Virus record (IMG/VR): IMGVR_UViG_3300044712_002693
Location: 1-46,171 of that record
DNA length: 46,171 nt
Direction: 5' to 3' (one strand)
From: a virus
Shown: piece after piece, positions 3,951-45,151 of the stretch
Numbering within the stretch: position 1 is the first letter of the stretch
Layout of the letters: the number at the start of each line of letters is the position of its first letter
Made by a program: the position numbers and the translations under genes
Notes under the pieces: generated by a model
Databases searched by the model: none
Told to the model about the DNA's origin: nothing
The model's input: only the letters and a program-made list of their open reading frames with translations

Positions 3951-5741
3951 TTACCACCCCCGATTAACGCGAAGAATCATTTTCCAGTTGGTGACTGCGA
4001 CCGCTAAAGCTGCAGCGGTTGTCTTGTTTTGAAGTGCTATATTTGCCGAGCCAGACAAAACCCGCACCGTTGATGTGTCTACTCCGACACCGAGGATCGA
4101 GTCGGCGACAGACGTCACACCATCCAACCAACGGGGAACCTCATCACCGACCGACCAGCCATTATTCGCAGTGACGCATTTAAGCGCGTACTCAACACGA
4201 GGGATGATTCCAGCGCCGATCTGATGGTTGTACGAAAACACCGTCGAGGAAGCCAGCGTTGCTGACTGGATGATGTTCTGCCCCATGTAGGCATAGGCGA
4301 CGGTGCTTGTCACCGTACCAGCCCCGGTTACAGCCTCTCCAACGAACACTCGATATGTCTGCGGCGCTGCCGCACCATTACCGACGAACATCTGCATTTG
4401 TGCGATGTTGAAGGTAGCCTGGTTTGCTGCCACAGAAGGCGTGCCACCTTGCTGATAAATCGGCAACACCGTCGTGCTACCAGGTGTCAGCGCGCCATTG
4501 GCCGCCACATCAACAAAGAGGTAGTTCGTTGCATTCGCGGTCAGGCCGGACCATGTCATGTTCGCCGTGCTAATTCCGACACGGTCAAGCGCGCCAGTGC
4601 TATTAAAGCCGTTGGCAGACGCGACGACGAATGGCGATCCGGCCGAGACATTCTGACTGGTCAACGACAGGCTTGCCGATGTCGCAGGGAGGAACGAAGG
4701 AAGGCCGCTTGTATCGACCGGCCCGCCGAGAACGGTTTGCCGAACAGAAACAGATGGAATAGAGGCTGTAATCGAAACGCCTGTAGCCGGGTTTAGCAGC
4801 ACCCACTTGTCGAGCGTTGCGTCGTACTGCAATTCGATCCAGTGGCCGCCGCCCGCAATGTCACCAACAGCTAGCGCAGCACCGGCACCCTTGACGATAG
4901 TCTTTGCCGCAATCACTCCGCTGGCCGGGGTGAAGGTCGGTGTGGTTGTCGCGTTGGCCGATCCGGCTCGGACGTATAGCGTCATTCCGTTGGTAAGCGA
5001 CGCGATGCCCGGGGTGTAAATTCCGGTGATCGCGTCGGCTGTGCCGCCGGCCGCTGAAATGTTGCATGCATTGCCTTGAAGGCCACCGACGATCAGCCCG
5101 AGAGCCGGAAGAATCTGAGCCGCCGAATATTGCGTGATATTGCCGGCGAGAATCTGGGTCTGCCCGTTGGCGACGGTGACGACATATGCGCCAACATATC
5201 CAGCGTCCGGAGCGGGCGTAACCTGGCTGCCGGTGGTTGCAGCAACACCGGCCTTTGCCACGATGCTGGCGACACCCTTGCGCACGGTGTTCTGTGCGGT
5301 GCCGGCATTGGCCGGCCCGGAGTAAGCCTGCGACGGGTTGCTGGCGTTGTAGTAGGGGAGCACGACGGCATTCGCGTCGCTGTCCTGGTAGGCAATTTCG
5401 ATCAGGTAATTGATGCTCTGGCCTGCGGTTGCGGGGGCCGGGCAGTTGAGCGTTACCTGATCGAGCGAAATGCCCTGCTTGAGAATCTGGTGAGTCGTGT
5501 CCGCAGCCAGCGAGGAATAGGCAGTGCCATCGATGTTAGACAGTGTGTAGATTTCGCCAGGGGCGCAATAGACCTGCAGGGATGCCGGCCCGGTCGGCGT
5601 GACGGCAAAGCCATTCAGCATCGTGGCAGTACCGAGGATTGCCGCTGCCAACTTCGACAGGCCGACCATCGCGTTCTTGTTCGTGTTCAGGAGGTCAGTT
5701 TCCAGCGGGATTGCGCCGGGATAGACGATTTGCCGATCCAT
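3951..5741 (-). CDS. Tail fibre protein
   Basis: A 596-residue protein, rich in Ala, Gly, Ser and Thr, right after the tail protein I gene. The N-terminal 200 residues (start MDRQIVYPGAIPLETDLLN, with NKNAMVGLSKLAAAILG) resemble the baseplate-attachment part of phage tail fibres. The remainder is low in charge, as in trimeric beta-structured fibres. It should bind the host surface. No DGR-type variable repeat is seen in it. A ribosome binding site GGAG precedes the ATG and a terminator lies just upstream. Confidence 0.8.
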   Translation of the reverse strand: MDRQIVYPGAIPLETDLLNTNKNAMVGLSKLAAAILGTATMLNGFAVTPTGPASLQVYCAPGEIYTLSNIDGTAYSSLAADTTHQILKQGISLDQVTLNCPAPATAGQSINYLIEIAYQDSDANAVVLPYYNASNPSQAYSGPANAGTAQNTVRKGVASIVAKAGVAATTGSQVTPAPDAGYVGAYVVTVANGQTQILAGNITQYSAAQILPALGLIVGGLQGNACNISAAGGTADAITGIYTPGIASLTNGMTLYVRAGSANATTTPTFTPASGVIAAKTIVKGAGAALAVGDIAGGGHWIELQYDATLDKWVLLNPATGVSITASIPSVSVRQTVLGGPVDTSGLPSFLPATSASLSLTSQNVSAGSPFVVASANGFNSTGALDRVGISTANMTWSGLTANATNYLFVDVAANGALTPGSTTVLPIYQQGGTPSVAANQATFNIAQMQMFVGNGAAAPQTYRVFVGEAVTGAGTVTSTVAYAYMGQNIIQSATLASSTVFSYNHQIGAGIIPRVEYALKCVTANNGWSVGDEVPRWLDGVTSVADSILGVGVDTSTVRVLSGSANIALQNKTTAAALAVAVTNWKMILRVNRGW

Positions 5742-8013: not shown

Positions 8014-8672
8014 TCAGCCTGTACGGTGTTGGTGGTATGGGTGCCGATGGTGGCCTGCTGGGTTGGTTTGCTGGTTTGCGTACCGACCGTCGTCGACGTG
8101 TGCGTGTGGTTGTTGTAGAGCGTCATGAACAGGTCTGTGCAGATCTTCTTGAGTGCCGTTCCGGCATTTCTGAGGACGATGCTGGCCGCCTGAATCGTTG
8201 CCGTTCCTGCTGATTGAACGGTAGTGTTGCCCGCAACATTCGCCACAAGATTGCCGCCGACCGTAGCCGTCAGGTCGGTGTGCGACGTGATAGTTACGCT
8301 GCCGTCGTTGTTGAATTTCAGGAACGCACCGGATTTATGAACCATCCACAATTCGCCACTTGGAACATCGAGCGGTCGGATTTCGTCGTTGAAGAAGCGC
8401 TGGCAGACGAACCCCGCTTCGAAGCTGTCCTCTTGAAACTGCACCTCTACGACGTCGCCGGGGGCTACCGGAGCGAACATTCCCCAGCCGTTGCCAACCC
8501 AAGGCGAGACAACGGGAAGCCATCCGGTCTCTGTATCCTCGGGCTGGATTCTGACCTTGGCGCAGTAGTTGGCGTGGTCGTAGCTGCTCACGATGCCAAC
8601 TCGAACCGATGCGCGCCCATTGCCTGCCATTGAGGCCTGTGCCCGAATCGCATTAAGCATCCCCGACATCAT
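8010..8672 (-). CDS. Baseplate spike protein V
   Basis: A 220-residue protein of the phage baseplate assembly protein V family. An OB-fold-like N-terminal half contains VRVGIVSSYDHANYCAKVRIQPEDTETGWLPVVSPWVG and GDVVEVQFQ. A repeated beta-helix-like stretch (SVTITSHTDLTATVGGNLVANVAG) follows. The C-terminus is His- and Thr-rich (NHTHTSTTVGTQTSK, then IGTHTTN), as expected for a spike tip that can bind metal. It should puncture the outer membrane. Confidence 0.85.
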   Translation of the reverse strand: MMSGMLNAIRAQASMAGNGRASVRVGIVSSYDHANYCAKVRIQPEDTETGWLPVVSPWVGNGWGMFAPVAPGDVVEVQFQEDSFEAGFVCQRFFNDEIRPLDVPSGELWMVHKSGAFLKFNNDGSVTITSHTDLTATVGGNLVANVAGNTTVQSAGTATIQAASIVLRNAGTALKKICTDLFMTLYNNHTHTSTTVGTQTSKPTQQATIGTHTTNTVQAE

Positions 8673-10051
8673 GCCGGCACCACGCTTTCCGGACTGTGAT
8701 TCTTGGCTCTGACATGCATGGTGTAACCCTCAAACACGCTCATTGAGCGGGTAATACTCTCTGGGTAATAAATCTGATCGAAAGCGGTACCCGTGCCGAT
8801 GACCTTTATTGTGCTGGTCACGTCCAGGATGTTGTCTGCTGGCAACGTCGCGTGCAGCTTCACTTCCTGAGCCGTTATTTCCTTGTGCAGCGCTTGCGCC
8901 TTCTGCAAGGCCTGCTCCTGCGTCAACCCAGGGATGGTGAATGGAAACACCTGGGCCACCGGAGACGAATTACCCGGAGCCGTTCCTTTGGCCTTGTTGG
9001 TCGGATATGAAACCGTGAATGCCTTTCCGCTTTTCCCGTTCCAGCTCCGAATGGAGACAACAACGCCTTTCGCCAGCGTCAAGTTGCGCGAAAACTCAAT
9101 CGACTTTCCGTTGAATCTTGCCGATGTGCTTTCGGTTGGCGGCTCCCACCGCAACACATAGGCCCCGCCTGATTCGATGATCTGGGGAGGCTCTTTCAAC
9201 TGGCGTTCAAGTTCGCGCAGCCGGGCCTGATATTTGGCAATAGCGCCTTCGCGCTCGGCTTTCGATGCAGCAAGTTCTTGCCTTGCCTGTGCTTCAAGTG
9301 CCGCGTCTTTTGTCGCTTGCGACTTGTCCCAATCGGCCGATGCAGAATCCAGCAGCGCCTGCGACTTCTTCAGTGATGCTGACCATGCCGCCTTGATCTC
9401 GTCTATTTCCTTCTGAATCGCCGGCCTGTTGTCGATTACCGTCGTTTTGGATACGGTTTCGGCGCGCGGCTCGAAGTGCAGGACGTTACCTTTCACGTAG
9501 ACCATGAACTGTTCTTCGTGGGCAAGCCATGTCAGCAAGTCCCATTCGGTGCGCTGGTCGGTCAATCGGGCATGGTCGATTTCGTAATACCGGCCAGTCT
9601 TGGTCTTGGTGTCGGTGACCTTGTACGCAAGGCCATGGCGTACGGCCAAAGCCTTTGCGATTTCGGACGACGTCTGATTTACCCACTTCTCCGTTGTCTT
9701 GGAGTCAATGAAAACCGAAGTCATGTCGCGGCCAGAAACAACGATTTTCCCGTATGCCGGATCGAATGAAACATCGTCGACCATCCCATAGATCAGGCTG
9801 GTCAATTCGTTCGCGGTGAATCGCTCGGCGTCTCTCGGGAAGCCGGCGAATATCTCAACGGCGATATGCGACTGCGAGGACCACCACGACGGCGACCGGT
9901 CGGCTGGCAGCGCGGCGATGGCAAAGCAGACACGGAAGGTGTCGGCCTGGTAGAACGTGTTGTTGTCTACCTCGAACGACTCTGCGCTGATTGTTATTTC
10001 ATCGTTGAGCTTGATGAGATACCTGGGCTGTCGTGCTTCTGCTTTAAGCAT
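8669..10051 (-). CDS. Tail hub protein, Mu gp44/P2 gpD-like
   Basis: A 460-residue baseplate hub protein. N-terminal strands (LIKLNDEITISAESFEVDNN) and the segment TSLIYGMVDDVSFDP match the gp44/gpD hub fold. Residues about 215-285 are a charged helical insert (SASADWDKSQATKDAALEAQ) likely to be a coiled coil. The gene lies between the gp43-like tail protein and the spike, as in Mu-like tails. Confidence 0.8.
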   Translation of the reverse strand: MLKAEARQPRYLIKLNDEITISAESFEVDNNTFYQADTFRVCFAIAALPADRSPSWWSSQSHIAVEIFAGFPRDAERFTANELTSLIYGMVDDVSFDPAYGKIVVSGRDMTSVFIDSKTTEKWVNQTSSEIAKALAVRHGLAYKVTDTKTKTGRYYEIDHARLTDQRTEWDLLTWLAHEEQFMVYVKGNVLHFEPRAETVSKTTVIDNRPAIQKEIDEIKAAWSASLKKSQALLDSASADWDKSQATKDAALEAQARQELAASKAEREGAIAKYQARLRELERQLKEPPQIIESGGAYVLRWEPPTESTSARFNGKSIEFSRNLTLAKGVVVSIRSWNGKSGKAFTVSYPTNKAKGTAPGNSSPVAQVFPFTIPGLTQEQALQKAQALHKEITAQEVKLHATLPADNILDVTSTIKVIGTGTAFDQIYYPESITRSMSVFEGYTMHVRAKNHSPESVVPA

Positions 10052-11003: not shown

Positions 11004-12865
11004 CGCTGATAACCCAATCCAACTGGAGGCGCGGCCATGCTGTAGTCAAAACCGGACGAGCCAGAGAATGGCTTGTTTGCTTCCTTGCTTTGATGCTGGC
11101 TAACAACCTGGGCAACGCGCCGGCCATCCATATTTATCTCTGTTGTGACCTGGACTGGTTGTTGCGATTTGCTTGCAACAAATGGGCTGCCACTGGCATT
11201 TCCCATCTGCCCGTTGTAGTTAAACGCCCCACCTTTTCCGAACCCCCAGGATTCGTGGGTTTTGTCGTAAATCCACCCACCAAGGGTTTGGTCCTTATCC
11301 CCGGTCAGTTTCTGAACGGCTGGATTTACGAGGTTGTCGTTGATCCATCCGCCAGCCTTCCAGCCTGCATAGGCCGCTAGAAATACGCCGCTTGCTTTCG
11401 CGACAAGGCCAATTCCTGTAGCCACGGACGCTAGGGCGCCACCGATTCCGCCAGCAGAACCGCCGATTGCCAGAGCAAGGCCAAGCCCCTTGAATCCTGC
11501 CGTGGCCAGCGCCAGAGTGCCGCCAACGGCAACCACGCCAGCCAGTACGCCAAAGGAAATCGTGATGCCCTTGGTCAGCGTTGGGAATTCGCGGGCGAAG
11601 TCTCTGACGCTAATCAGAACGCCGGTAAGGCCTTCGACTCCCCGGATAGCAATGGGCAGGATGGTCTCGCCCAATTCTTTGAGCACGTCATGCCACTTGG
11701 CCCACAGATCGACCTCTTTACCGGAGAGCGTCTTGGATGCCCGGTCGCTGGCTTGATCTAGGTTTTCGGCGTGATAGTTCGCGTCCGTCTGCATGTGCAG
11801 CTTTTCTCGCTGCTGGTAAATACGAGCCATCAGAGACGAGCCGGTACGGTTTCCGAGGATCATCCCAAGTTCCTGCAGGATGCCCTCGTCGCTGGTGATG
11901 CCGGCCTTCGAGAATGCGGGCAGCAGCACCTTTTCGAGCAGGGCAAGTTCGCCTTCCTTCTCTAGCACGCCAGAACCCATGAACGCGCCCGGCAATGCCT
12001 TTTTCAGCTTGCCCAGCTTGTTGAATTCGATCTTGCTGGGATCGAGCAGGCCGAGCCGGTTCAATTCCTGCTGCGCCGTGATGGTGCCGCGCGACTGGAC
12101 AAGGTTCTGGTAGATGCTCATGGCGGCCGTGCCGTAGCGGTTGCCGCCGAATTCCTGCATCAATGGCTCGGCGCCGAGGTAAAACGCCTCGTTGCTGCGC
12201 TGTGACAGCGCTACGCCGCCCGTCTTGAGGGCTTGGAGCATCATCGATGGATCGACTCGGTTGCGGCTGCCGGCAATGGCTTGCTGGGCGAAATTGGCCT
12301 GACGGGCGAACTCTTCCGGGCTGGACAGGCCGCCGCGAAACTCGACGACCTTCATCATGTCCATGAGCTTGGTGTCGCGCTCTCCACCGTCGGCACCGAA
12401 GATCACCTTGTTGGCGAACTTCATCTTTGCCATGAGCGGGGCGACCATCTGGGATTCGTGCAGGTCTTTGAACACGGCCATGGCATCGCCGACGATGCTC
12501 ATGTTTTCCCGGGCGCTGGTACCGATGGTCTTCATGCCGGTGGCGAACTGCACCGCCTGGCTGTTGATCTTTTCACCGAATCCGAGCGAGGCGAATTTCG
12601 CGGCCTCGATCTGGAACTTCTTCGCCTCTTCCAGTGGGGCGGCAAACATGGACAAGCCGAAGCCGCCGGCAGCAGCGGCAGCGCCGCCGATCAGGCCGAT
12701 CTTCTTAAGGCCAAGCATCTGGCGTTCAAGGGCGGTGATGCTCGCCTGAGTCGCGCCGATGTGTCTATTCAGGCCTTGAAATTGACCAGCGAGCGAAACA
12801 AGACCAGCTCCAACGTTATTGATTAGGGATAGCTTTACGGCTACCTTGTAGGCTTCAAAGCTCAT
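11000..12865 (-). CDS. Tail tape measure protein
   Basis: A 621-residue protein that sets tail length. It has a helical N-terminal region with SLAGQFQGLNRHIGATQASI, and a hydrophobic Gly/Ala-rich membrane-like zone near residues 435-515 (ISFGVLAGVVAVGGTLALAT). It lies between the tail assembly chaperone group and the tail hub genes, the standard position. It is short for a tape measure, so a fairly short tail is expected. Confidence 0.85.
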   Translation of the reverse strand: MSFEAYKVAVKLSLINNVGAGLVSLAGQFQGLNRHIGATQASITALERQMLGLKKIGLIGGAAAAAGGFGLSMFAAPLEEAKKFQIEAAKFASLGFGEKINSQAVQFATGMKTIGTSARENMSIVGDAMAVFKDLHESQMVAPLMAKMKFANKVIFGADGGERDTKLMDMMKVVEFRGGLSSPEEFARQANFAQQAIAGSRNRVDPSMMLQALKTGGVALSQRSNEAFYLGAEPLMQEFGGNRYGTAAMSIYQNLVQSRGTITAQQELNRLGLLDPSKIEFNKLGKLKKALPGAFMGSGVLEKEGELALLEKVLLPAFSKAGITSDEGILQELGMILGNRTGSSLMARIYQQREKLHMQTDANYHAENLDQASDRASKTLSGKEVDLWAKWHDVLKELGETILPIAIRGVEGLTGVLISVRDFAREFPTLTKGITISFGVLAGVVAVGGTLALATAGFKGLGLALAIGGSAGGIGGALASVATGIGLVAKASGVFLAAYAGWKAGGWINDNLVNPAVQKLTGDKDQTLGGWIYDKTHESWGFGKGGAFNYNGQMGNASGSPFVASKSQQPVQVTTEINMDGRRVAQVVSQHQSKEANKPFSGSSGFDYSMAAPPVGLGYQR

Positions 12866-12876
12866 TTTTATCCCTC

Positions 12877-13056
12877 ATGGCACAAGCTCGATACCGTGGC
12901 CGCATCATTGATGTGACCGACATAGACGAAAAGCCGGATCGGCTGTCGTGGTATCAGCGCGCCTGGTTGCTACTGTTTGCAATGATCGTTTTGCCGATCT
13001 GTGGGGTTGCCCTGTTCTTGCTCGGCGTTCTGGCATGGGCCGCTATCACGGCTTGA
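12877..13056 (+). CDS. Small opposite-strand membrane protein (tentative)
   Basis: A 59-residue frame on the plus strand fills the only gap between the gp10-like gene and the tape measure gene. It encodes a charged N-terminus (VTDIDEKPDRLSWYQRAW) followed by one strong membrane helix (LLLFAMIVLPICGVALFLLG). The protein looks real in composition, but no good ribosome binding site precedes the ATG, and it opposes the surrounding late operon. It overlaps the gp10-like stop by 11 bases. It might be a membrane protein expressed from the prophage. Confidence 0.4.
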   Translation: MAQARYRGRIIDVTDIDEKPDRLSWYQRAWLLLFAMIVLPICGVALFLLGVLAWAAITA

Positions 13057-33786: not shown

Positions 33787-34014
33787 TCAGGCGGCTTTCT
33801 GTTCCGGTTGCGAGAAGCGTTCCGGGTAGATGATTTCCGTCTCGGTGACCTTGTTGTCGAAGTACTTCGCCAGCTTCTCGGTCAAGTCCTTCGAGGGAAC
33901 CTGCAGGCCACGCTCGATGCGGCTCAAGTTACCGGTGTCAATGCCGACGGCGTTCGCTACTTCCTGCAGCGTCTTGTCTTCATCGAGTCGTACTTTTTTG
34001 AGGGGTGTATTCAT
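33787..34014 (-). CDS. Cro-like HTH repressor
   Basis: A 75-residue helix-turn-helix protein of the XRE family, diverging from the CI gene. The DNA-binding part is TLQEVANAVGIDTGNLSRIE, followed by RGLQVPSKDLTEKLAKYF. Its recognition helix (TGNLSRIERG) is almost identical to that of CI (TGNLSRLERG), so the two very likely bind the same operators. An open frame runs far upstream, but it starts inside the CI gene; the ATG at 34014 is preferred. Confidence 0.85.
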   Translation of the reverse strand: MNTPLKKVRLDEDKTLQEVANAVGIDTGNLSRIERGLQVPSKDLTEKLAKYFDNKVTETEIIYPERFSQPEQKAA

Positions 34015-34159
34015 GGTTGAAAACCTTGCGCTTGGTGAGGTGCCCGAATTCTGCGCCACACACAGAATCAACGTCAAGCAAAATCTGCGTTTGCCACTTT
34101 GCGTTACGCGCAGCGCCGCGCAGAAAATAGACGAACCAAAACAAACGGGCGGGGAAGCA
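34015..34159. promoter_or_regulatory. CI/Cro control region with operators
   Basis: The gap between cro and cI has a 22-bp near-palindrome at 34047-34068: AATTCTGCGC, then CAC, then ACACAGAAT. Leftward TTGACG (34077-34072) and CAGAAT could form the cro promoter, with the operator between them. Half sites AATCTGCGT (34082-34090) and GCGCAGAAAAT (34118-34128, reverse) may be more operators. No clear rightward promoter for cI is visible. Confidence 0.65.
34047..34068. promoter_or_regulatory. 22-bp operator O1
   Basis: An imperfect inverted repeat with outer arms ATTCTG and CAGAAT, lying between cro and cI. It shares 19 of 22 bases with the site at 35556-35577 in front of the DGR operon. Confidence 0.65.
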
Positions 34160-35460: not shown

Positions 35461-35482
35461 CCAAGTAGAAACGATTTCAAGG

Positions 35483-35508
35483 AAGCCACCTTCGGGTGGC
35501 TTTTTTTC
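35483..35508 (+). terminator. Intrinsic terminator of the cI operon
   Basis: AAGCCACC pairs with GGTGGCTT around TTCG and is followed by a run of seven T. Confidence 0.9.
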
Positions 35509-35555: not shown

Positions 35556-35623
35556 AATTCTGCGCTTGACACAGAAAGCGGCAAAGCATAATCTGCGTCT
35601 GTGTTCTGTTTATTACGCAGATT
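35556..35623 (+). promoter_or_regulatory. Promoter and operators of the DGR operon
   Basis: A perfect -35 box TTGACA (35566-35571) is followed by CATAAT (35587-35592) after 15 bases. The 22-bp site at 35556-35577 matches the cI-cro operator at 19 of 22 positions and covers the -35 box. Downstream, AATCTGCGT (35590-35598) and ACGCAGATT (35615-35623) form a perfect 9-bp inverted repeat. The layout fits repression by CI or Cro of all genes to the right. Confidence 0.7.
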
Positions 35624-35638
35624 TTCAAGGAGAGAAAG

Positions 35639-36565
35639 ATGACCAAAGCAACCGCAGACAAGAAGGCCCTCGGCCTTTTCCAGAAGTTCAACGTCAGCCG
35701 CACCGATGGCCGCGATGCACCCGGCGAGAAGCACCACGGCGCCGAGTACTTCGTGCTCGATATGGCTGACACGTTCGCGATCCCAGCGCTGACCGCTTAC
35801 GCCGAAGCCTGCAAGCACGAATACCCGGTGCTTTCCGCCGATCTGTTCCGCAAGGCGTCCGAAAAGTCGCTGGCAGCATCCGAATTCATCACCGTTCCGG
35901 AAGTCACGCTGCCGAATGGCTTGGTTGTTCCGTCCTTCCTCTGCGCCAAGTTCCTGAGCAGCCAGGGCCTCAACGACACGCCGATTTCGCTCTTCACTGG
36001 CAAGCCGTGGGTCGAGATCAACTATCAGGAATCCCGCGATGCAGCCCTGCGCGCCGGACTGAACCTGATCACCGAAACGCAGGCCCTGGCCATCGCCTTC
36101 AACGTCAGCCAACAGGCCATTAACTGGACCGGTGGCGAAGTTGGCAATGGCGCTCTGTTCCAAGGTCTGCGCAATGACAACTTCGATGAAGCTCAGCCGG
36201 CCAACGTCGAATCCGAAGACGAAACCGAGCGCCGCTGGTTCGAGCTTTCAAACGGCGAGCGCATCTATGACTTCGCCGGCAATGCCTACACGTGGGTATT
36301 CGATGACGTTCAAGGCGATGAAAACGGCCTGACGACGATCATCAATGCAGATTCGCCAAGTCTGACGACTGCGCCCTTCCCATCCCGCGAAAAAGGCATG
36401 GGCTGGCGACCGGACGGCCAGCGCGACTGGTCCGGGCATGCGCTCATCCGGGGCGGCTGCTGGCTCTCCGAGTCGTATGCCGGCGCGTTCTATCTCGTCG
36501 GCGGCTGGCCCGGCAACCGCTACGGCGGCGTCGGCTTCCGCTGCACCAAACCCATTGGCCTCTGA
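35639..36565 (+). CDS. DGR target protein 1 with FGE-like C-type lectin domain
   Basis: A 308-residue protein, first gene of the rightward operon, with an AAGGAGAG ribosome binding site. Residues 1-82 (FNVSRTDGRDAPGEKHHGAE, YFVLDMADTFAIPALTAYAE) form a separate conserved phage domain of unknown role. From about residue 83 to the end is an FGE/sulfatase-modifying C-type lectin fold (LNLITETQALAIAFNVSQQA, RIYDFAGNAYTWVFDD, GWRP). The last 45 codons hold variable repeat VR1 and end GFRCTKPIGL. There is no signal peptide, so it is cytoplasmic or particle-bound. Confidence 0.9.
   Translation: MTKATADKKALGLFQKFNVSRTDGRDAPGEKHHGAEYFVLDMADTFAIPALTAYAEACKHEYPVLSADLFRKASEKSLAASEFITVPEVTLPNGLVVPSFLCAKFLSSQGLNDTPISLFTGKPWVEINYQESRDAALRAGLNLITETQALAIAFNVSQQAINWTGGEVGNGALFQGLRNDNFDEAQPANVESEDETERRWFELSNGERIYDFAGNAYTWVFDDVQGDENGLTTIINADSPSLTTAPFPSREKGMGWRPDGQRDWSGHALIRGGCWLSESYAGAFYLVGGWPGNRYGGVGFRCTKPIGL
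36429..36543 (+). repeat. DGR variable repeat VR1
   Basis: 115 bp matching the TR at 43904-44018 without gaps. It differs at 16 of the 24 TR adenines (10 to G, 5 to T, 1 to C), plus one T-to-C at 36464. Variable codons are mostly AAY or GAC in the TR. The 3' end GTCGGCTTCCGCTG is invariant and, with CACCAAACCC after it, likely is the initiation site of homing. Confidence 0.93.
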
Positions 36566-36575
36566 TCACCGGTCC

Positions 36576-36600
36576 CGGGTCGCGGCTCTGCCGTGACCTG
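36576..36600. repeat. Hairpin after VR1
   Basis: CGGGTCGCGGC (36576-36586) pairs with GCCGTGACCTG (36590-36600) around TCT, with two G-T pairs. It begins 33 bases after the end of VR1, as does the hairpin after VR2. No T run follows. Confidence 0.7.
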
Positions 36601-36627
36601 ATCAACGGAATCTCTCGGGAGAAAACC

Positions 36628-36882
36628 ATGAACAACGTCCATCCGCTTTTCAAAACCGCACTGGCACCTATCACGCCGCGCATGCCGGCCAAGGGCACGC
36701 GCCCCTTCGCTGTGCGCTTCACCATCGGCGCCGAGGTCCATGACCTCAACGTGATCGCCTTCACGTCCTGCGACGCGATCTGCATGGCTATCGACATCTT
36801 CTTCGACGGCGAGGACAACATGCCGGTCGACGGGATGAAAGTCGATGTGCACCCGATGAATTTCCTCCCGGCTGCTGCCTGA
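36628..36882 (+). CDS. Small protein, unknown function
   Basis: An 84-residue protein (VHPLFKTALAPITPRMPAKG, FAVRFTIGAEVHDLNVIAFT, ICMAIDIFFDGEDNMPVDGM). It has a good GGGAG ribosome binding site. No family is recognised. It lies between target gene 1 and the recombination genes. Confidence 0.65.
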   Translation: MNNVHPLFKTALAPITPRMPAKGTRPFAVRFTIGAEVHDLNVIAFTSCDAICMAIDIFFDGEDNMPVDGMKVDVHPMNFLPAAA

Positions 36883-37340: not shown

Positions 37341-38168
37341 ATGAACGCACCCGAAAGAATCGTCGCGCCGTCGCTGACCGTCCGCGCAAGCTCATGGGCC
37401 AGTCTGTTCGACTGCGCCTACATGTGGGAGGGCATCCACCTCCTGAAACTGCGCAACGTGGTCGGCCTGCGCGCCGCGCTTGGCACCGCCATTCATGCCG
37501 GTACCGCCGTTTTCGATACGGCACGCCTGACCGGTGACACCGTGACCGCTGACGATGCTGCCGGCGTCTTCGTCGACAAGCTGCACGACCCAGAAAATGA
37601 GTACGACCCGAGCCGCGATGACCTGTCTGTCAGCGAGGCCGAAAAGGTCGGCGTCACGCTCCTGACCAAGTACTGCTTCGAAGTCTCGCCGCGCTACAAC
37701 TTCGTGGCCGTCGAGATGGAAACCAAGCCGCTGGACATTGATTGCGGCTCCGGCGTGATTGTTCGCCTGACCGGCACCATGGACCGGGCGCGCATTCGCA
37801 AGGGCGACCACGGCGTCGGCATTGCTGACCTCAAGAGCGGCTCCGCAGCCGTGCAGAAGGGCGTCGCTGTCACCAAGGGCCACGGCCCCCAGATCGGCAC
37901 CTACGAACTGCTCTACGAGCACACGACCGGCGAGCCGATCACCGACGACGCCGAGATTATCGGCCTCAAGACCAAAGGGGCCGCCGAAATCGCCACCGGC
38001 ACGGTCAAGAACGCCAAGCGCGTGATGGTCGGTACCGAAGACCAGCCCGGCTTGATTGAGTTTGCAGCCGAGATGTTCAAGACCGGCCGCTTTTACCCCA
38101 ACCCCAAGTCGCTCCTGTGCTCGGCCAAGTATTGCCCGCGCCACGCGACTTGCCATTTCCACGACTGA
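37341..38168 (+). CDS. PD-(D/E)XK nuclease with Fe-S cluster (Cas4/RecB-like)
   Basis: A 275-residue nuclease of the Cas4/RecB-like exonuclease group, probably the partner of RecT. His52 (AIHAGTAVFD) lies in motif I, Asp148 in TGTMDR is the metal-binding residue, and motif IADLKSG has Asp163 and Lys165. Four Cys (25, 260, 265 and 271) can hold an iron-sulphur cluster (CSAKYCPRHATC at the end). It should resect DNA to give single strands for RecT. It lies 17 bases before recT. Confidence 0.85.
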   Translation: MNAPERIVAPSLTVRASSWASLFDCAYMWEGIHLLKLRNVVGLRAALGTAIHAGTAVFDTARLTGDTVTADDAAGVFVDKLHDPENEYDPSRDDLSVSEAEKVGVTLLTKYCFEVSPRYNFVAVEMETKPLDIDCGSGVIVRLTGTMDRARIRKGDHGVGIADLKSGSAAVQKGVAVTKGHGPQIGTYELLYEHTTGEPITDDAEIIGLKTKGAAEIATGTVKNAKRVMVGTEDQPGLIEFAAEMFKTGRFYPNPKSLLCSAKYCPRHATCHFHD

Positions 38169-38185
38169 CAGGAGAACGCAACACC

Positions 38186-39241
38186 ATGACAGCACCTAAC
38201 CAACTCGCCGAGATGAAAACCGGCAACAACCTTGCCCAGCAGCAGGACGTAAAGGTCGATTTCTTCTCGAAAAACGGCTTCGAACTGGCCTGCCGGATTT
38301 CGAAGGCTCTCGCCACCTCTGACGCCGTGCCGGCTCAGTTCCGTCAGTTCGTCGAGAAGAAGGAACGCGGCGGCGGTGTAACGCTGGTCGAGAATCCCGC
38401 AGCTATCGGCAATTGCCTGGTGGCGATGGAAGTTTCTCGCTCGGTCGGCCTTTCCGTGATTGCGGTGATGCAGAACGCCGACGTGATCCAAGGAAAGCTC
38501 CGCTGGTCTTCGAAATTCCAGATCGCGGCAATCAACGCCTCGGGCCGCTTCTCCCCGCTCAAGTTCAAGCTACAGAACCTTGGCCGCATCAAGGCCAAGT
38601 ACAAGGAAAAGCTGGGATGGAACAAGCAACTGAACCGCTTCGACTTTGCCGAGCATGAAGTCGAAATCGACAATTGGGAGTGTGTCGCCTGGGCTTACGA
38701 ACTGGACGCCAACAAGCGTCCGACCAAGGAAATCGTCCAGTCGATCCCGATCACCATGCAGATGGCGGTCGAGGAAGGCTGGTATTCGAAGGAAGGGTCA
38801 AAGTGGCAAGGCTCGATGCGCTTCCAGATGCTCCAGTACCGCGCCGGCACCTTCTTTGGCTCGATCTACGCCCCGGACGTGCTGATGGGCATGGGGAAGA
38901 GCACCGAAGAGGAAGTCGACGTGATCGATGTCGTTCCTCAAGCGGACGGCTCGTATGCCGCGACCAGCGCCACCCTGCAGGAACTTCGCTCCGCGCCTGA
39001 CGTTGGCACCATCCCGACGACTGAATCCATCGACAAATCGACCGGAGAAATCCTCGACGCCGACGACGCAGCCCTTCGCGAAGTTGAGCAGACGAAGGCA
39101 GAGCCGGCCAAGTCGGGCGAATGGACGCCTAGCCCGGAAGAACTAGCCGCGATCCGCGCGCAGGAAATGGCCGAGGCCCAAGGCAAGCAACCCGAACCGA
39201 CCCGCCAGCGCCGCGAACGTAGCGGCATGGGCATCGAGTAA
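38186..39241 (+). CDS. recT: RecT-like single-strand annealing protein
   Basis: A 351-residue DNA annealing protein. The region NCLVAMEVSRSVGLSVIAVM, then ADVIQGKLRWSSKFQIAAIN and MQMAVEEGWYSKEGSKWQGS matches the RecT family. The C-terminal 100 residues are acidic and likely flexible. The ATG at 38186 is chosen because GGAGAA lies 9 bases upstream. Together with the nuclease it forms a recombination pair. It could take part in copying VR sequence, but that is not known. Confidence 0.88.
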   Translation: MTAPNQLAEMKTGNNLAQQQDVKVDFFSKNGFELACRISKALATSDAVPAQFRQFVEKKERGGGVTLVENPAAIGNCLVAMEVSRSVGLSVIAVMQNADVIQGKLRWSSKFQIAAINASGRFSPLKFKLQNLGRIKAKYKEKLGWNKQLNRFDFAEHEVEIDNWECVAWAYELDANKRPTKEIVQSIPITMQMAVEEGWYSKEGSKWQGSMRFQMLQYRAGTFFGSIYAPDVLMGMGKSTEEEVDVIDVVPQADGSYAATSATLQELRSAPDVGTIPTTESIDKSTGEILDADDAALREVEQTKAEPAKSGEWTPSPEELAAIRAQEMAEAQGKQPEPTRQRRERSGMGIE

Positions 39242-39966: not shown

Positions 39967-40266
39967 ATGGAAGCTTATCGCCACAACCGCATGACCATCG
40001 AGTTGCACAACGACGAAATGGACACCATGCGCGAAATTCTGCGCCTCGCCCATGAGCGCCTTATCAATGCGCCACTCATTCAGATGAAAGGCTCGCCGCT
40101 CGAACGCCAAGCCTGCCTTGTCGGCCCGGAGTTGTTCCGCGCCAAGGACATGATTGAAAAGCTCGGAAAGCACCTTGGCATTGAGTTGCCGATGGATGCA
40201 AAGCCGGGTAACGAACCCGAGCACGTTTACATCTGTTTCGAGATTATAAACGAGGTGAAAAAGTGA
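39967..40266 (+). CDS. Small helical protein, unknown function
   Basis: A 99-residue protein (MTIELHNDEMDTMREILRLA, HERLINAPLIQMKGSPLERQ, AKDMIEKLGKHLGIELPMDA). It is helical and has no recognised domain. The stop overlaps the GTG of the next gene (GTGA), so it is likely co-translated with the ATPase. Confidence 0.65.
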   Translation: MEAYRHNRMTIELHNDEMDTMREILRLAHERLINAPLIQMKGSPLERQACLVGPELFRAKDMIEKLGKHLGIELPMDAKPGNEPEHVYICFEIINEVKK

Positions 40267-42098
40267 AAATCCAATCCATCACCACAAGCAACTTCCTCGG
40301 CTCCCGCGCCGTCGAGTTGCGCCTGAACAAGCAGGTCGCTCTGATCGCCGGGAAGAACTTCGCCGGTAAGAGCAGCATTCAGGAGGCCGTCCGCATGGCC
40401 CTGACCGGCGAGACTGTCCGCGTTGATCTTAAAAAGGACTATGCCGCGCTGATCACCGAGGGGCAGGAGTCTGGCTTTGCGGCCATTGAAACCACGAACG
40501 CTGGTTTCGAGGCTGTTCTGCCTTCCGGCAAGGGAAACCACAGCGACAACGCCGCGCTTTCCTACGTCCTCGACGCCCAGCGCTTCGCCAAGATGGCCGA
40601 GAACGACCGCCGCCAGTTCCTTTTCGGGCTGATGGGCGTAAAACTCGACAGCGACAACATCCGCCGTCGCCTGATTGATCGCCTGTTCGGCAAGTCTCAG
40701 ATGTTGGACGCCGATACCAAGCGCATAGACCAGATCGCCCCGATCCTTCGCGCCGGCTTTGATGCGGCGGCCAAGGAAGCCGCCAGCAAGGCACGCGACT
40801 CCAAGTCCAGCTACAAGACGGCAACCGGTGGCGACACCTGGGGCAATGAGAAGGGCGGAAAGTGGCAACCGGCCGCGCTTCCTGACGAAGCCAACAAGGC
40901 ACAGAACCGCCACGATAACGCCAAGGAAAAGCTGATCGAGGCCGACAAGGAACTGGCTGCCGCGCAACAGGAACTCGGCGCGGCCAAATCTGCACAGCGC
41001 CAGGCGCACGAAGCCGAGACAAAGCGCCTCGAACTGCACAACATGGCTAGCAACGTCGAACGCTACGCCACGAAGCTAAACCTCGACACCGCCGAACTGG
41101 TGGCATGGGAACAGAAGGTAGCCGACTGCAAGGCAAAGGCCGGCGTCGCCAAGCCTGACCCGAAAGAGCCCGGTGAATTCCTGCTGCGTGGGCTGGCCGC
41201 CGTAACCGATGAATTTCTTGTCATCGCCCGCTCTTTCCCCGATCCGTTCGATGACGAACTGGTCAACCGTGCCGAGACACACCTTGCCGAGTACAAGAAG
41301 TTGCACGGCTGGCCGCACAAGAAGGATGACCAACCCGATCGGGAAGCCATCGCCAAGCTGCCAGAGTACGAAAACGCCCTGAAGCTGATGCAGAGCTCCG
41401 TCGCTAACAGCAAGCGTAACCTTGAAGCGGCACAGAAGGCGGCCGAGCAGTTGAAGGAACTGGACGGGCTAAAGGCAAACGCCAACACCGACGAAGCAGA
41501 ATCCAAGGTCGCCGACCTGAAAGCGAAGCGCGACGCCTGGCTGGCCGACGTCACCAAGTACCGCGACATCGCCGAGCAGTTCAGCCGCCGTCAAGCGGCA
41601 ATCGATCAGGTCGCCAAGCTTCACGCCGACGTTCTGGCATGGACGGCGATTGCCGACGCGCTGGCACCGGATGGCATCCCGGCCGAATTGCTGGCCGAGG
41701 CTCTTGAGCCGATCAATCACCGGCTTGCGGTGACGGCGGGCGACGCTCAATGGGACCGCATCGAAATCATGCCCGACATGCAGATCATCGCCGCACTGCA
41801 TGGCCGCCCCTACGCCTTGCTGTCCGAGTCTGAGAAGTGGCGCGCCGACGCGATGATTGCCGAGGCTGTGTCGCATATCGCTGGCTTGAAACTGCTGGTT
41901 CTCGACCGCTTCGACGTTCTAGATCTCAACGGCCGAGAGGACTTGCTTTACTGGCTCGACGGCATGGCCGCAGCCGGAGAAATCGACACCGCTCTTATCT
42001 TCGGCACGCTCAAGGCGCTGCCAACGCTCAACTTCGACAACATCGAGGCGTTCTGGATCGAAAACGGCGTATCCGGCCAGATGAAGGAGGCGGCGTGA
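40263..42098 (+). CDS. SbcC/Rad50-like ATPase
   Basis: A 611-residue ABC-type ATPase. Walker A is GKNFAGKS (residues 30-37). Central residues about 190-460 are charged and helical, with coiled-coil character (ANKAQNRHDNAKEKLIEADK, AKRDAWLADVTKYRDIAEQF). A signature-like LSESEKWRADAMI precedes Walker B LLVLDRFDVLD. The start is GTG at 40263. The family joins DNA ends or holds strands; here it probably supports phage recombination. No SbcD nuclease is seen. Confidence 0.85.
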   Translation: MKIQSITTSNFLGSRAVELRLNKQVALIAGKNFAGKSSIQEAVRMALTGETVRVDLKKDYAALITEGQESGFAAIETTNAGFEAVLPSGKGNHSDNAALSYVLDAQRFAKMAENDRRQFLFGLMGVKLDSDNIRRRLIDRLFGKSQMLDADTKRIDQIAPILRAGFDAAAKEAASKARDSKSSYKTATGGDTWGNEKGGKWQPAALPDEANKAQNRHDNAKEKLIEADKELAAAQQELGAAKSAQRQAHEAETKRLELHNMASNVERYATKLNLDTAELVAWEQKVADCKAKAGVAKPDPKEPGEFLLRGLAAVTDEFLVIARSFPDPFDDELVNRAETHLAEYKKLHGWPHKKDDQPDREAIAKLPEYENALKLMQSSVANSKRNLEAAQKAAEQLKELDGLKANANTDEAESKVADLKAKRDAWLADVTKYRDIAEQFSRRQAAIDQVAKLHADVLAWTAIADALAPDGIPAELLAEALEPINHRLAVTAGDAQWDRIEIMPDMQIIAALHGRPYALLSESEKWRADAMIAEAVSHIAGLKLLVLDRFDVLDLNGREDLLYWLDGMAAAGEIDTALIFGTLKALPTLNFDNIEAFWIENGVSGQMKEAA

Positions 42099-42270: not shown

Positions 42271-42969
42271 ATGAAAAACGATTGCTTTGTATATGTTCCA
42301 GAAACGACTCTGCCGAACGGAACTATCGTCCCGGCGTTCCATGTTGGCCAATATGCCTGCACCAAAGGCGAAGAAGGGAAAGCTGCTGTTTCGCCCAGCG
42401 CCGCACCATGGGTTCGAATCAATTTTGCCGAGGCAAAAGAGGCGTGCGAGAAGGCTGGTTACAAACTCATCACCGAACTGCAATGGCTGGCCATCGCCTG
42501 GAACGCTTCACAGCAGGCGTGCAACTGGACGAAGGGCGAAGTCGGCAAGGGAAAACTGTTCCGTGGCATCCGCAATGGCAATTACAGCAGCGCCCAGCCG
42601 GGCAACGTTGAGCCGGCAGACCATAAGGAACGCCGCTGGCTGACCTTGTCGAGCGGTGAGCGCATTTGCGACATGAACGGAAACGTCTGGCAGTGGGTAT
42701 TCGATAACGTCCAAGGCAACGATGACGGCCTGATCGCCAAGGCATTCGACAAGGAATCGCCGTCGATTGCTGCCGCGCCCTACCCGAGCGAAGAGAAGGG
42801 AATGGGCTGGCGACCGTCCTCTGGTTCAAATTGGTCCGGGAATGCGCTCATCCGGGGCGGCTACTGGTGCTCCGAGTCGGATGCCGGCGCGTTCAATCTC
42901 AACAGCGACTGGCCCGGCGACCGCAGCGGCGACGTCGGCTTCCGCTGCACCAAACCCATTGGCCTCTGA
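42271..42969 (+). CDS. DGR target protein 2 with FGE-like C-type lectin domain
   Basis: A 232-residue protein made only of the FGE-like C-type lectin domain (TLPNGTIVPAFHVGQYACTK, YKLITELQWLAIAWNASQQA, RICDMNGNVWQWVFDN). It lacks the extra N-terminal domain of target 1. The last 45 codons carry VR2 and end GFRCTKPIGL, identical to target 1. GGGAG precedes the ATG. There is no signal peptide. It lies directly in front of the accessory gene, the TR and the reverse transcriptase. Confidence 0.92.
   Translation: MKNDCFVYVPETTLPNGTIVPAFHVGQYACTKGEEGKAAVSPSAAPWVRINFAEAKEACEKAGYKLITELQWLAIAWNASQQACNWTKGEVGKGKLFRGIRNGNYSSAQPGNVEPADHKERRWLTLSSGERICDMNGNVWQWVFDNVQGNDDGLIAKAFDKESPSIAAAPYPSEEKGMGWRPSSGSNWSGNALIRGGYWCSESDAGAFNLNSDWPGDRSGDVGFRCTKPIGL
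42833..42947 (+). repeat. DGR variable repeat VR2
   Basis: 115 bp aligning with the TR at 43904-44018 without gaps. All 9 differences are at TR adenines and all are changed to G. Changed codons include TAC to TGC, AAT to GAT, AAC to AGC or GAC, and GAC to GGC. Confidence 0.94.
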
Positions 42970-43031: not shown

Positions 43032-43877
43032 ATGAGCGAAGCACCAACCAAAGAAGAACAGACCGAGTTTTCAATCCGAGCCTTCCGATGCGTCGAGGTT
43101 GGCCTTGGTCAAGCTGACCCGACAGCGGCCATTGCCGCCAAGTTGGAAGCGAAGAATCCGGGGCACCTGGTTCTGGTTCAGGCTGGCAAGTTCCTGCATG
43201 GGTTTGATCGCACGGCCTATGCGCTGAACGTGCTGAAGCAGTACAAAATGAAGTTGGTCGGAACAGCGGAAGAGCCGCGCCTTCGTGTTGGATTTCCGGT
43301 CGGGAATTTCAAACGCCGACTATGGTCAATGGTCGCTGACTTCGGCATTCCCTATGTCGTTGCGCTCGGCACGCAGGCAGAAGGCCACACGGTATATGTA
43401 TCCGAGCAACCGGCCGGCAATGTTTCGGTACTGGATTCCGTCTCTGACCTGGTGGTTCATGAGGTCATCACCGAACTGAAGCAACGCGGTGAATTGAACA
43501 AAGCTGCCGCCAAGCAACTGTTGGCCACTCCGGACACTTCCGGATTTGCGCTTAAGTCGCAGGCACAAGACCTCGACACTCAAATTTTGCAGGACATCAT
43601 CAAGTTGCCACGTGACCTGCGCTGTACCTACGGAGAGAATCTGCGCGCCTGCATGGCGAGAATCATCCGCGCCATCTTTGCCTTTGGTTTGGAAGAGAAC
43701 AAGCCGGCCCTGTTGCGCAGTCTGTCGGCAGATGTGGATTGCCTCAAGCACTACCTGACTCAGGCTCCAAGGCTAAACCTGCACAAGTCGTTCTCGTTCG
43801 AACATCGTGTCGGTTTAGCCGTTGAGCTTGGCAAGCTTGTTGGCGGACTGATTAAGTCCCATCAGGTGCAGCCATGA
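43032..43877 (+). CDS. MutS domain I-Avd fusion, DGR accessory protein
   Basis: A 281-residue protein with two parts. Residues about 33-125 (LVLVQAGKFLHGFDRTAYAL, MKLVGTAEEPRLRVGFPVGN) align with MutS domain I. The Phe of the mismatch-reading Phe-X-Glu motif is kept (Phe54) but the Glu is His56. Residues about 180-278 (KLPRDLRCTYGENLRACMAR, ALLRSLSADVDCLKHYLTQA, VELGKLVGGLIKS) match the Avd four-helix accessory protein that binds the DGR RNA and the reverse transcriptase. Its stop overlaps ATG 43874. It should help priming or copying of the TR. Confidence 0.82.
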   Translation: MSEAPTKEEQTEFSIRAFRCVEVGLGQADPTAAIAAKLEAKNPGHLVLVQAGKFLHGFDRTAYALNVLKQYKMKLVGTAEEPRLRVGFPVGNFKRRLWSMVADFGIPYVVALGTQAEGHTVYVSEQPAGNVSVLDSVSDLVVHEVITELKQRGELNKAAAKQLLATPDTSGFALKSQAQDLDTQILQDIIKLPRDLRCTYGENLRACMARIIRAIFAFGLEENKPALLRSLSADVDCLKHYLTQAPRLNLHKSFSFEHRVGLAVELGKLVGGLIKSHQVQP

Positions 43878-43903
43878 TGTTCAACGAAGGGGGATTTCTG
43901 GAA

Positions 43904-44018
43904 GGTCCGGAAATGCGCTCATCCGGGGCGGCTACTGGTACTCCGAGTCGAATGCCGGCGCGTTCAATCTCAACAACGACTGGCCCGACAACCGCAACGA
44001 CAACGTCGGCTTCCGCTG
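43904..44018 (+). repeat. DGR template repeat (TR)
   Basis: 115 bp, 24 adenines, located between the accessory gene and the reverse transcriptase. It matches VR1 and VR2 from GGTCCGG to GTCGGCTTCCGCTG. Two adenines just before it (43902 and 43903) may also be part of it. After the match it reads ACCCAAGGAT where the VRs read CACCAAACCC. In the VR frame the TR ends with TGA. Its transcript is the RNA copied with adenine errors. Confidence 0.94.
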
Positions 44019-44152
44019 ACCCAAGGATTTCATGTTTAGACGCTGGGCACGCCCACGGAAAGCTTCTTCTTGGTCGAAATCTTCCTGAAGCAATCGCTTC
44101 AAAAGCAAGGCAACACGCCCAGCCGGGAACCGCCACGGGGCCTGCTGGCGCC

Positions 44153-45151
44153 GTGGCGGAACACGGTAGTGATTTCTACAACCTGACGACACTTGTCAAC
44201 CTTCACGCATGCTGGATCAAGGCCAGACGTAACAAGGGAAACAGGGAGCGCATCCAGCGCTTTGCTCAAGATCCGCTGCACTATCTGAGCATCATTCAGG
44301 AACGACTGCGCAGCCGAACCTATTCCTTCGGCCCGTACCGCAGCTTCACTGTTCGAGAGAAGAAATTCCGGTTCGTGATTGATGCGCCGATGAAGGATCG
44401 CATTGTCCATTGGATGCTCTACGACTACCTGCTGCCAATCTGGCAGACGCGCTTCATCCATGACACCTACGGAAACCTTCCCGGGCGCGGCACGCTGGCT
44501 GCCATCAACCGCCTGGCCGACTTCTGCCGGCGACCGGCGGCGCGCTGGGTGCTGCAACTCGACATCTCGAAATATTTCTATTCGGTCGGCCATGACCTGC
44601 TGAAAGCTCGGGCACTGCGATTCATCGGCGACCACGACGTGCGCCAATTGGTTATTGCGTTGATCGATTCTTGGCGCACCGACGACCGTTACGACGATCT
44701 GTTCCCGGCCGATAGCGCCTACCGGAAGACGGCGGCAAAGGGCATGCCCATCGGCAATCTGTCATCGCAGCTATTCGCGAACATCTTCCTCAACGACTTC
44801 GATCACTGGGTAAAGGAAACCCTGCGCGTTCGGCATTACATCCGCTACGTCGACGACATGGTTATCGTCGCCGAGAGCAAGGAGGCGGCCGAGGAAATCG
44901 GCCGGGCCATCGTCGAGAAGCTGGCAGCCGACGGCATGACCATCCACCCCAAGAAAATCTGCTTGGCGCCGGTTGCCGCCGGCATCCCATTCCTCGGCTA
45001 CGTGGTGTGGCCGAATCACATCTCGGCGGGGCGCTACGTGCGCTCCCGCTTTCTTCACAGACTCAGGCAGCACGAAACCGGCGGTTACGACCGAACGGAG
45101 AGCTTGCAGTCATATCGGGCCATGCTTGGCCATACAGGAGCAACACGATGA
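44153..45151 (+). CDS. DGR reverse transcriptase
   Basis: A 332-residue retroelement reverse transcriptase if started at GTG 44153. It has the DGR N-terminus (DFYNLTTLVNLHACWIKARR), motif A LQLDISKYF (Asp137), the DGR hallmark IGNLSSQ (200-206) instead of the usual QG...SP, and catalytic YVDD (232-235). The end SLQSYRAMLGHTGATR is typical. An open frame reaches back to ATG 43874, which overlaps the stop of the accessory gene and would put the TR in the coding region. No strong ribosome binding site is seen before the GTG. The stop overlaps the dUTPase ATG. Confidence 0.92.
   Translation: MAEHGSDFYNLTTLVNLHACWIKARRNKGNRERIQRFAQDPLHYLSIIQERLRSRTYSFGPYRSFTVREKKFRFVIDAPMKDRIVHWMLYDYLLPIWQTRFIHDTYGNLPGRGTLAAINRLADFCRRPAARWVLQLDISKYFYSVGHDLLKARALRFIGDHDVRQLVIALIDSWRTDDRYDDLFPADSAYRKTAAKGMPIGNLSSQLFANIFLNDFDHWVKETLRVRHYIRYVDDMVIVAESKEAAEEIGRAIVEKLAADGMTIHPKKICLAPVAAGIPFLGYVVWPNHISAGRYVRSRFLHRLRQHETGGYDRTESLQSYRAMLGHTGATR

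Follow-up and report, generated by a model that had tools for sequence, protein, structure and literature searches.

A DGR in a phage early operon with putative CI operators at its promoter

For lambda-like phages, control of the early operons by the repressor is textbook knowledge, and in phages of the lambda type CI represses both early promoters. The DGR of BPP-1, arranged as mtd-avd-TR-brt, has a single tail-fibre target and, to our knowledge, is not placed in an early operon. In Pseudomonas phages of the PP9W/phi297 group, an S24 repressor C is followed by a PD-(D/E)XK exonuclease, RecT and an AAA ATPase, and the cultured phage PP9W carries TTTAGAAA-type palindromes at the repressor gap and in a stretch downstream; no DGR is annotated in the stretch of this group that was examined. 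The question of when DGRs are active is described as one that has received less study (PMC11792537). According to the sections of the hankyphage p00/jmh43 report used here, silencing of the CI-like RepC raised the expression of most phage genes and DGR mutagenesis was active in virions, while lysogen cultures held some DGR diversity without deliberate induction, along with spontaneous virion production (PMC12135933). The sequence-only reading of the DNA analyzed here had presented the link between a lysogeny repressor and a DGR as notable; going by those sections, hankyphage RepC already provides such a link, in that phage genes come on once a CI-like repressor is lost and the resulting virions show active DGR mutagenesis (PMC12135933). 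Hankyphage differs in being a Mu-like transposable Bacteroides phage with a tail-fibre target, and the same sections report no operator at its DGR operon promoter (PMC12135933). Among the non-subscription papers that our search covered, none describes the operator of a lysogeny repressor at the promoter of a DGR operon.

We analyzed IMG/VR virus record IMGVR_UViG_3300044712_002693, a stretch of 46,171 bases classed as linear, which is called the window throughout. As in lambda, cI and cro are divergent and encode HTH domains, CI is of the S24 type, and one operator occurs both at cI-cro and at a second early promoter (in lambda, oR at cI-cro and oL at pL), which drives a same-strand operon with exo and single-strand annealing genes. 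Unlike lambda, which has three operators per early promoter region, the window has one plus two, and its early operon carries a DGR. The order of repressor, exonuclease, RecT and ATPase recalls the PP9W/phi297 group, from which the window differs in operator sequence and in the DGR. With BPP-1 it shares RT, Avd, TR and adenine-specific VR changes; however, it has two targets, not known as tail proteins, in an early operon, and its Avd-like protein is long. What is new here is that a DGR with two early targets sits inside an early operon apparently under repressor control, and that an annealing protein belongs to the same gene run. The regulatory features are as follows (L numbers denote related loci described below).

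33787..34014, minus strand: cro-like repressor gene, 75 aa, HTH_3, recognition helix DTGNLSRIERG; divergent from cI
34048..34068, no strand assigned: putative operator at cI-cro, ATTCTGCGCCACACACAGAAT; conserved in L014, L024 and L017
34160..34801, plus strand: cI repressor, 213 aa, HTH and Peptidase_S24
35479..35506, plus strand: predicted intrinsic terminator, AAGGAAGCCACC-TTCG-GGTGGCTTTTTTT; -17.7 kcal/mol, z -3.8; strong hairpin and T-run
35557..35577, no strand assigned: putative early-promoter operator 1, ATTCTGCGCTTGACACAGAAA; covers the -35 box
35566..35593, plus strand: predicted promoter of the early/DGR operon, -35 TTGACA (35566-35571), 16 bp, -10 CATAAT (35588-35593); aligned with L014, L024, L016 and L017
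35603..35623, no strand assigned: putative early-promoter operator 2, GTTCTGTTTATTACGCAGATT; directly past the predicted transcription start

The sequence-only reading had pointed to a site between cI and cro, 34047-34068, that recurs at 35556-35577 with 19 of 22 bases equal. Both positions are right, but direct comparison of AATTCTGCGCCACACACAGAAT (34047-34068) with AATTCTGCGCTTGACACAGAAA (35556-35577) gives 18 identical bases of 22. Apart from this recurrence, the matches to the site that reach at least 16 of 22 all stand at exactly 16. Each of the two sites is a 21-bp palindrome of the form ATTCTGYGY-N3-RCRCAGAAW. The one at cI-cro overlaps the -10 CAGAAT (34053-34048) of a promoter-like site directed toward cro, with TTGACG at 34077-34072. 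The other encloses the -35 TTGACA of the operon headed by DGR target 1, just as had been claimed. TTGACA-16 bp-CATAAT fits the sigma-70 promoter type well and lies 68 bp ahead of the target 1 start codon (ATG at 35639), and the terminator at 35479-35506 would split the cI transcript from the early operon; both elements were read from the sequence, with the hairpin folded, and the promoter/terminator scanner detected neither. Two further elements had escaped the first reading: operator 2, a third site that is kept in two relatives (L014:12691 and L024:12052), and a segment at 34076-34093 that resembles 35584-35601 in register with the two operators. A matrix built from L014 and L024 only scored 27.5 bits at 35557, 27.2 at 34048 and 21.6 at 35603, whereas every other position of the 46-kb window stayed at or below 13.4 bits, so that exactly three sites stand out. 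Strong operators thus number one at cI-cro and two at the early promoter, the matrix scan finding only half-sites otherwise and no operator near the DGR cassette.

Within the window alone, the 18/22 match is moderately significant and suggestive only, because 18 of 3,000 dinucleotide-shuffle pairs reached it (the 145-bp cI-cro gap against the 405-bp stretch before target 1). That frequency leaves some room for chance similarity or a functionless duplicated promoter, an explanation to which we nevertheless give next to no credence: the position and the palindrome are conserved in L014 and L024, and the sites covary over about 14 operator types. It is these comparative data that appear to settle the reality of the sites where the match within the window would fall short.

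For the comparison, loci with an HTH repressor upstream of DGR targets were gathered by searches with target 1, the Avd-like protein and the target alignment, and in each locus the 5' region of the repressor gene was compared with the stretch between the repressor and the first target or early gene. The similarity summed over own-locus pairs was 322 for 19 loci, against a permuted mean of 289.7 (sd 3.8) and a maximum of 310, and none of 100,000 permutations reached the observed value. With one locus per operator type the sum was 256 against 228.3 (sd 3.6), reached by none of 200,000 permutations. As a within-locus control, 10 of the 19 loci had no equally good match to the repressor region outside the gap. 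Chance similarity as the sole cause was rejected by the locus permutation, the within-locus control and the relatives-only matrix. The loci hold about 14 distinct, unrelated operators, 13 of which occur where DGR targets are present. Eighteen of the 19 loci fit, counting L129 and L143, whose operators the automated search misplaced and which were then assigned by eye; those of L143 are GTAACNATAGTT at 5593, 5641, 7073 and 7101. The only non-fitting DGR locus examined was L127, in which no operator was common to the detected HTH gene and the region before the target operon; its true repressor may be located elsewhere. The loci share a promoter plan, with one palindrome over the -35 TTGAC and a second on or directly past the -10. 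Examples of the operators are as follows.

L009: AGGCCTTTTATGGCCTTGACTTATAGGCCTTTTACGGCCTACTAT
L013: CAACACGTGTTGACTACAGTATTCAACACGTGTTGTAAT
L004: TTCAACTTCACGTTGACTTTGCATTTCAACTTATGGTTGAATAT
L107 (Aromatoleum toluclasticum): ATACGTTCGCGTATTGACATTCCTATACGCGCTCGTATAAAT
L108 (Pseudoduganella rivuli): TTTTAAGCGCACTTAAA

Because the operator at the promoter changes in step with the one beside the repressor gene across many unrelated sequences, we consider the phage's own repressor much the most probable binder at the early promoter, and host LexA a very unlikely one. If the sites were LexA boxes with the core CTG-N9-CAG, the DGR operon would be under direct SOS control, and a CTG...CAG palindrome does overlap the -35 box. 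However, LexA boxes of the CTGT-N8-ACAG type have N10 spacing, against N9 here, and a host LexA site would not change wholly between phages along with the site at the repressor gene, as these operators do. We rejected a LexA box on its spacing and on the operator covariation, and regard this explanation as improbable in the extreme.

The two repressors of the window have nearly the same recognition helix, DTGNLSR(L/I)ERG being common to both, in line with the original observation. This likeness would also be compatible with an early promoter that responds to Cro alone, which would trim expression in late infection while the lysogen is silenced by other means. We judge that quite improbable, since lambda-type CI acts on both early promoters and the window showed no further repressor gene close to the operon. 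CI itself matches Pfam S24 (2.2e-22), and its alignment to lambda CI (3bdn) covers the VQAG cleavage site, the GESM serine and the TFKK lysine, which makes SOS induction plausible for this phage. The proposed link between SOS and diversification holds up for the window to the extent that its CI has an S24 domain with the cleavage residues, but it is not general: in five related loci (L004, L009, L143, L151, L175) the HTH repressor found lacks an S24 domain, and the common principle would therefore be a tie to the lysogeny decision, not to SOS.

Five phages (L014, L015, L016, L017, L024) have a CI 69-81% identical to that of the window and share the early backbone of g84, exo, recT and sbcC, with the sequence of L014 ending inside exo and g84 not found in L017. 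The DGR RT had no match in the stretches of these five phages that were examined. Aligned with the window, their early promoter has TGCGCTTGAC across the -35, and in all five the same promoter and operators precede g84 or a different early gene. L015 and L016 have a different operator, ATGCGT..ACGCAT, at cI-cro and again at the early promoter, and in their recognition helices the T of the window is replaced by V (CI) or S (Cro). A DGR-specific promoter was ruled out because these relatives, which lack a DGR at this place, have the same promoter. Since they carry the same promoter without the DGR, it appears to be an ordinary early promoter of the lambda pL type in whose operon the DGR sits. 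The idea that the lysogeny repressor controls the DGR directly survives in part: a putative operator of the phage's own CI/Cro pair overlies the promoter from which both targets, the Avd-like gene, TR and RT would be transcribed, but such control is not specific to the DGR, the promoter being a general pL-type one.

In L014, L016 and L024, g84 is the first gene past the early leader. The segment of the window that holds target 1 (35624-36640) lies exactly between the early leader and g84, and these three phages represent the empty site. Because relatives without target 1 show this empty site, it would seem that target 1 arrived (or disappeared) alone, as one gene at the head of the operon. At L024:16975-17427, after sbcC, an encoded protein corresponds to the N-terminal ~65 residues of target 1 and lacks the lectin-like domain; no DGR was found nearby. 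Target 1 may be a fusion of an L024-like early protein with a DGR-variable domain. The features of the operon are as follows.

35639..36565, plus strand: DGR target 1 (T1), first gene of the early operon
36429..36543, plus strand: VR1, 17 mismatches to TR, 16 at TR adenines
36628..36882, plus strand: g84, which heads this operon in relatives without T1
37341..38168, plus strand: PD-(D/E)XK exonuclease
38186..39241, plus strand: RecT-like single-strand annealing protein
40263..42098, plus strand: SbcC-like ATPase
42271..42969, plus strand: DGR target 2 (T2), FGE-sulfatase/C-type-lectin-like
42833..42947, plus strand: VR2, 9 mismatches to TR, 9/9 at TR adenines
43032..43877, plus strand: Avd-like accessory protein, long N-terminal extension; PHROG Avd 1.7e-7; Pfam bAvd 2.8e-5, below its cut-off
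43874..45151, plus strand: DGR reverse transcriptase (RT), PHROG RT 3.2e-99
43904..44018, plus strand: TR, located within the 5' portion of the RT reading frame

The operon runs T1, g84, a 120-aa gene, exo, recT, genes of 222 and 99 aa, the sbcC-like gene, a 57-aa gene, T2, the Avd-like gene and RT, followed downstream by a dUTPase and then an AlpA-like gene. From T1 to RT, all assigned genes lie on the plus strand with gaps of at most 93 bp, and they presumably form one transcript. Judged from its sequence, the DGR appears genuine, with an RT, adenine-specific TR/VR differences and an Avd-type protein, and it is predicted to be mutagenic; the DGR context supports assigning the RT to the DGR group. 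TR (43904-44018) sits in the RT frame (43874-45151) in another frame than the VRs use. The Avd-like protein (43032-43877) has ~165 additional N-terminal residues with no Pfam match.

That mutagenesis is silent in the lysogen, as had been predicted, would hold only if RT and TR lack a promoter inside the operon. An internal, CI-independent promoter for Avd, TR and RT would let the lysogen keep mutating at least target 2, leaving target 1 as the only lysis-specific one. RT lies ~8 kb from the early promoter, the DGR cassette is without a nearby operator in the matrix scan, and in BPP-1 lysogens plasmid-borne DGR components can retarget a prophage (PMC3240598), from which it follows that cDNA integration does not need lytic growth. 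Against an internal promoter, the genes are tightly packed with overlapping start and stop codons, and the sole promoter-like match that the promoter scan found near the cassette (43573-43600) is weak and within chance expectation. We find such a promoter rather unlikely and infer that RT and TR lack one, with mutagenesis timed accordingly. The diversity found in hankyphage lysogens would, by analogy, count against strict silence in the lysogen here.

We conclude that, very probably, 35557-35577 and 35603-35623 are operators for CI (probably also for Cro) on a pL-type promoter, which would gate the DGR operon in the lysogen. The sequences directly show the sites and how they are conserved, the way they covary from phage to phage with the operator at the repressor gene, and the placement of the operon genes on one strand; we infer binding by CI and Cro and the resulting repression, and CI control of the DGR is well supported on these comparative grounds. 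In the lysogen, CI on the operators would block the -35 box and the start region, and the entire early operon, targeted mutagenesis included, would stay off. On induction, CI would be lost, for an S24-type CI probably via RecA-stimulated self-cleavage, and the operon would open; it would open likewise in a new infection, where CI is not yet present. Early in the lytic cycle the targets, RT, TR and the annealing protein would then be made together. The DGR genes should be on at each lytic infection too, not just at induction, and the mutating machinery is probably off in the dormant virus and on when the virus multiplies. These results name a concrete, testable switch that recurs with at least 12 unrelated pairs of repressor and operator, of which two come from named bacterial strains, and suggest that these DGRs diversify early lytic proteins, not tail fibres, and only during phage replication. 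We see an even balance for and against the broader reading, in which the lysogeny decision gates targeted hypermutation throughout a widespread group of temperate phages. The DGR would there be built, along with the annealing protein, into the repressor-controlled early operon; its early, apparently non-tail targets would stay fixed in lysogens and vary only in genomes undergoing replication, with the annealing protein perhaps aiding cDNA integration.

A single-strand annealing protein lies in the same gene run as the DGR both in the window (RecT, 38186-39241) and in L127 (Erf, 8014-8799). Its place beside mutagenic cDNA machinery bears on how cDNA enters the target, and the pairing may be a natural parallel to recombineering-assisted cDNA integration. 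In L122, an ORF with a DNA-methylase domain (12018-13028) lies between the Avd-like gene and RT, and the 5' portion of this ORF matches the region of the window around TR and the RT start.
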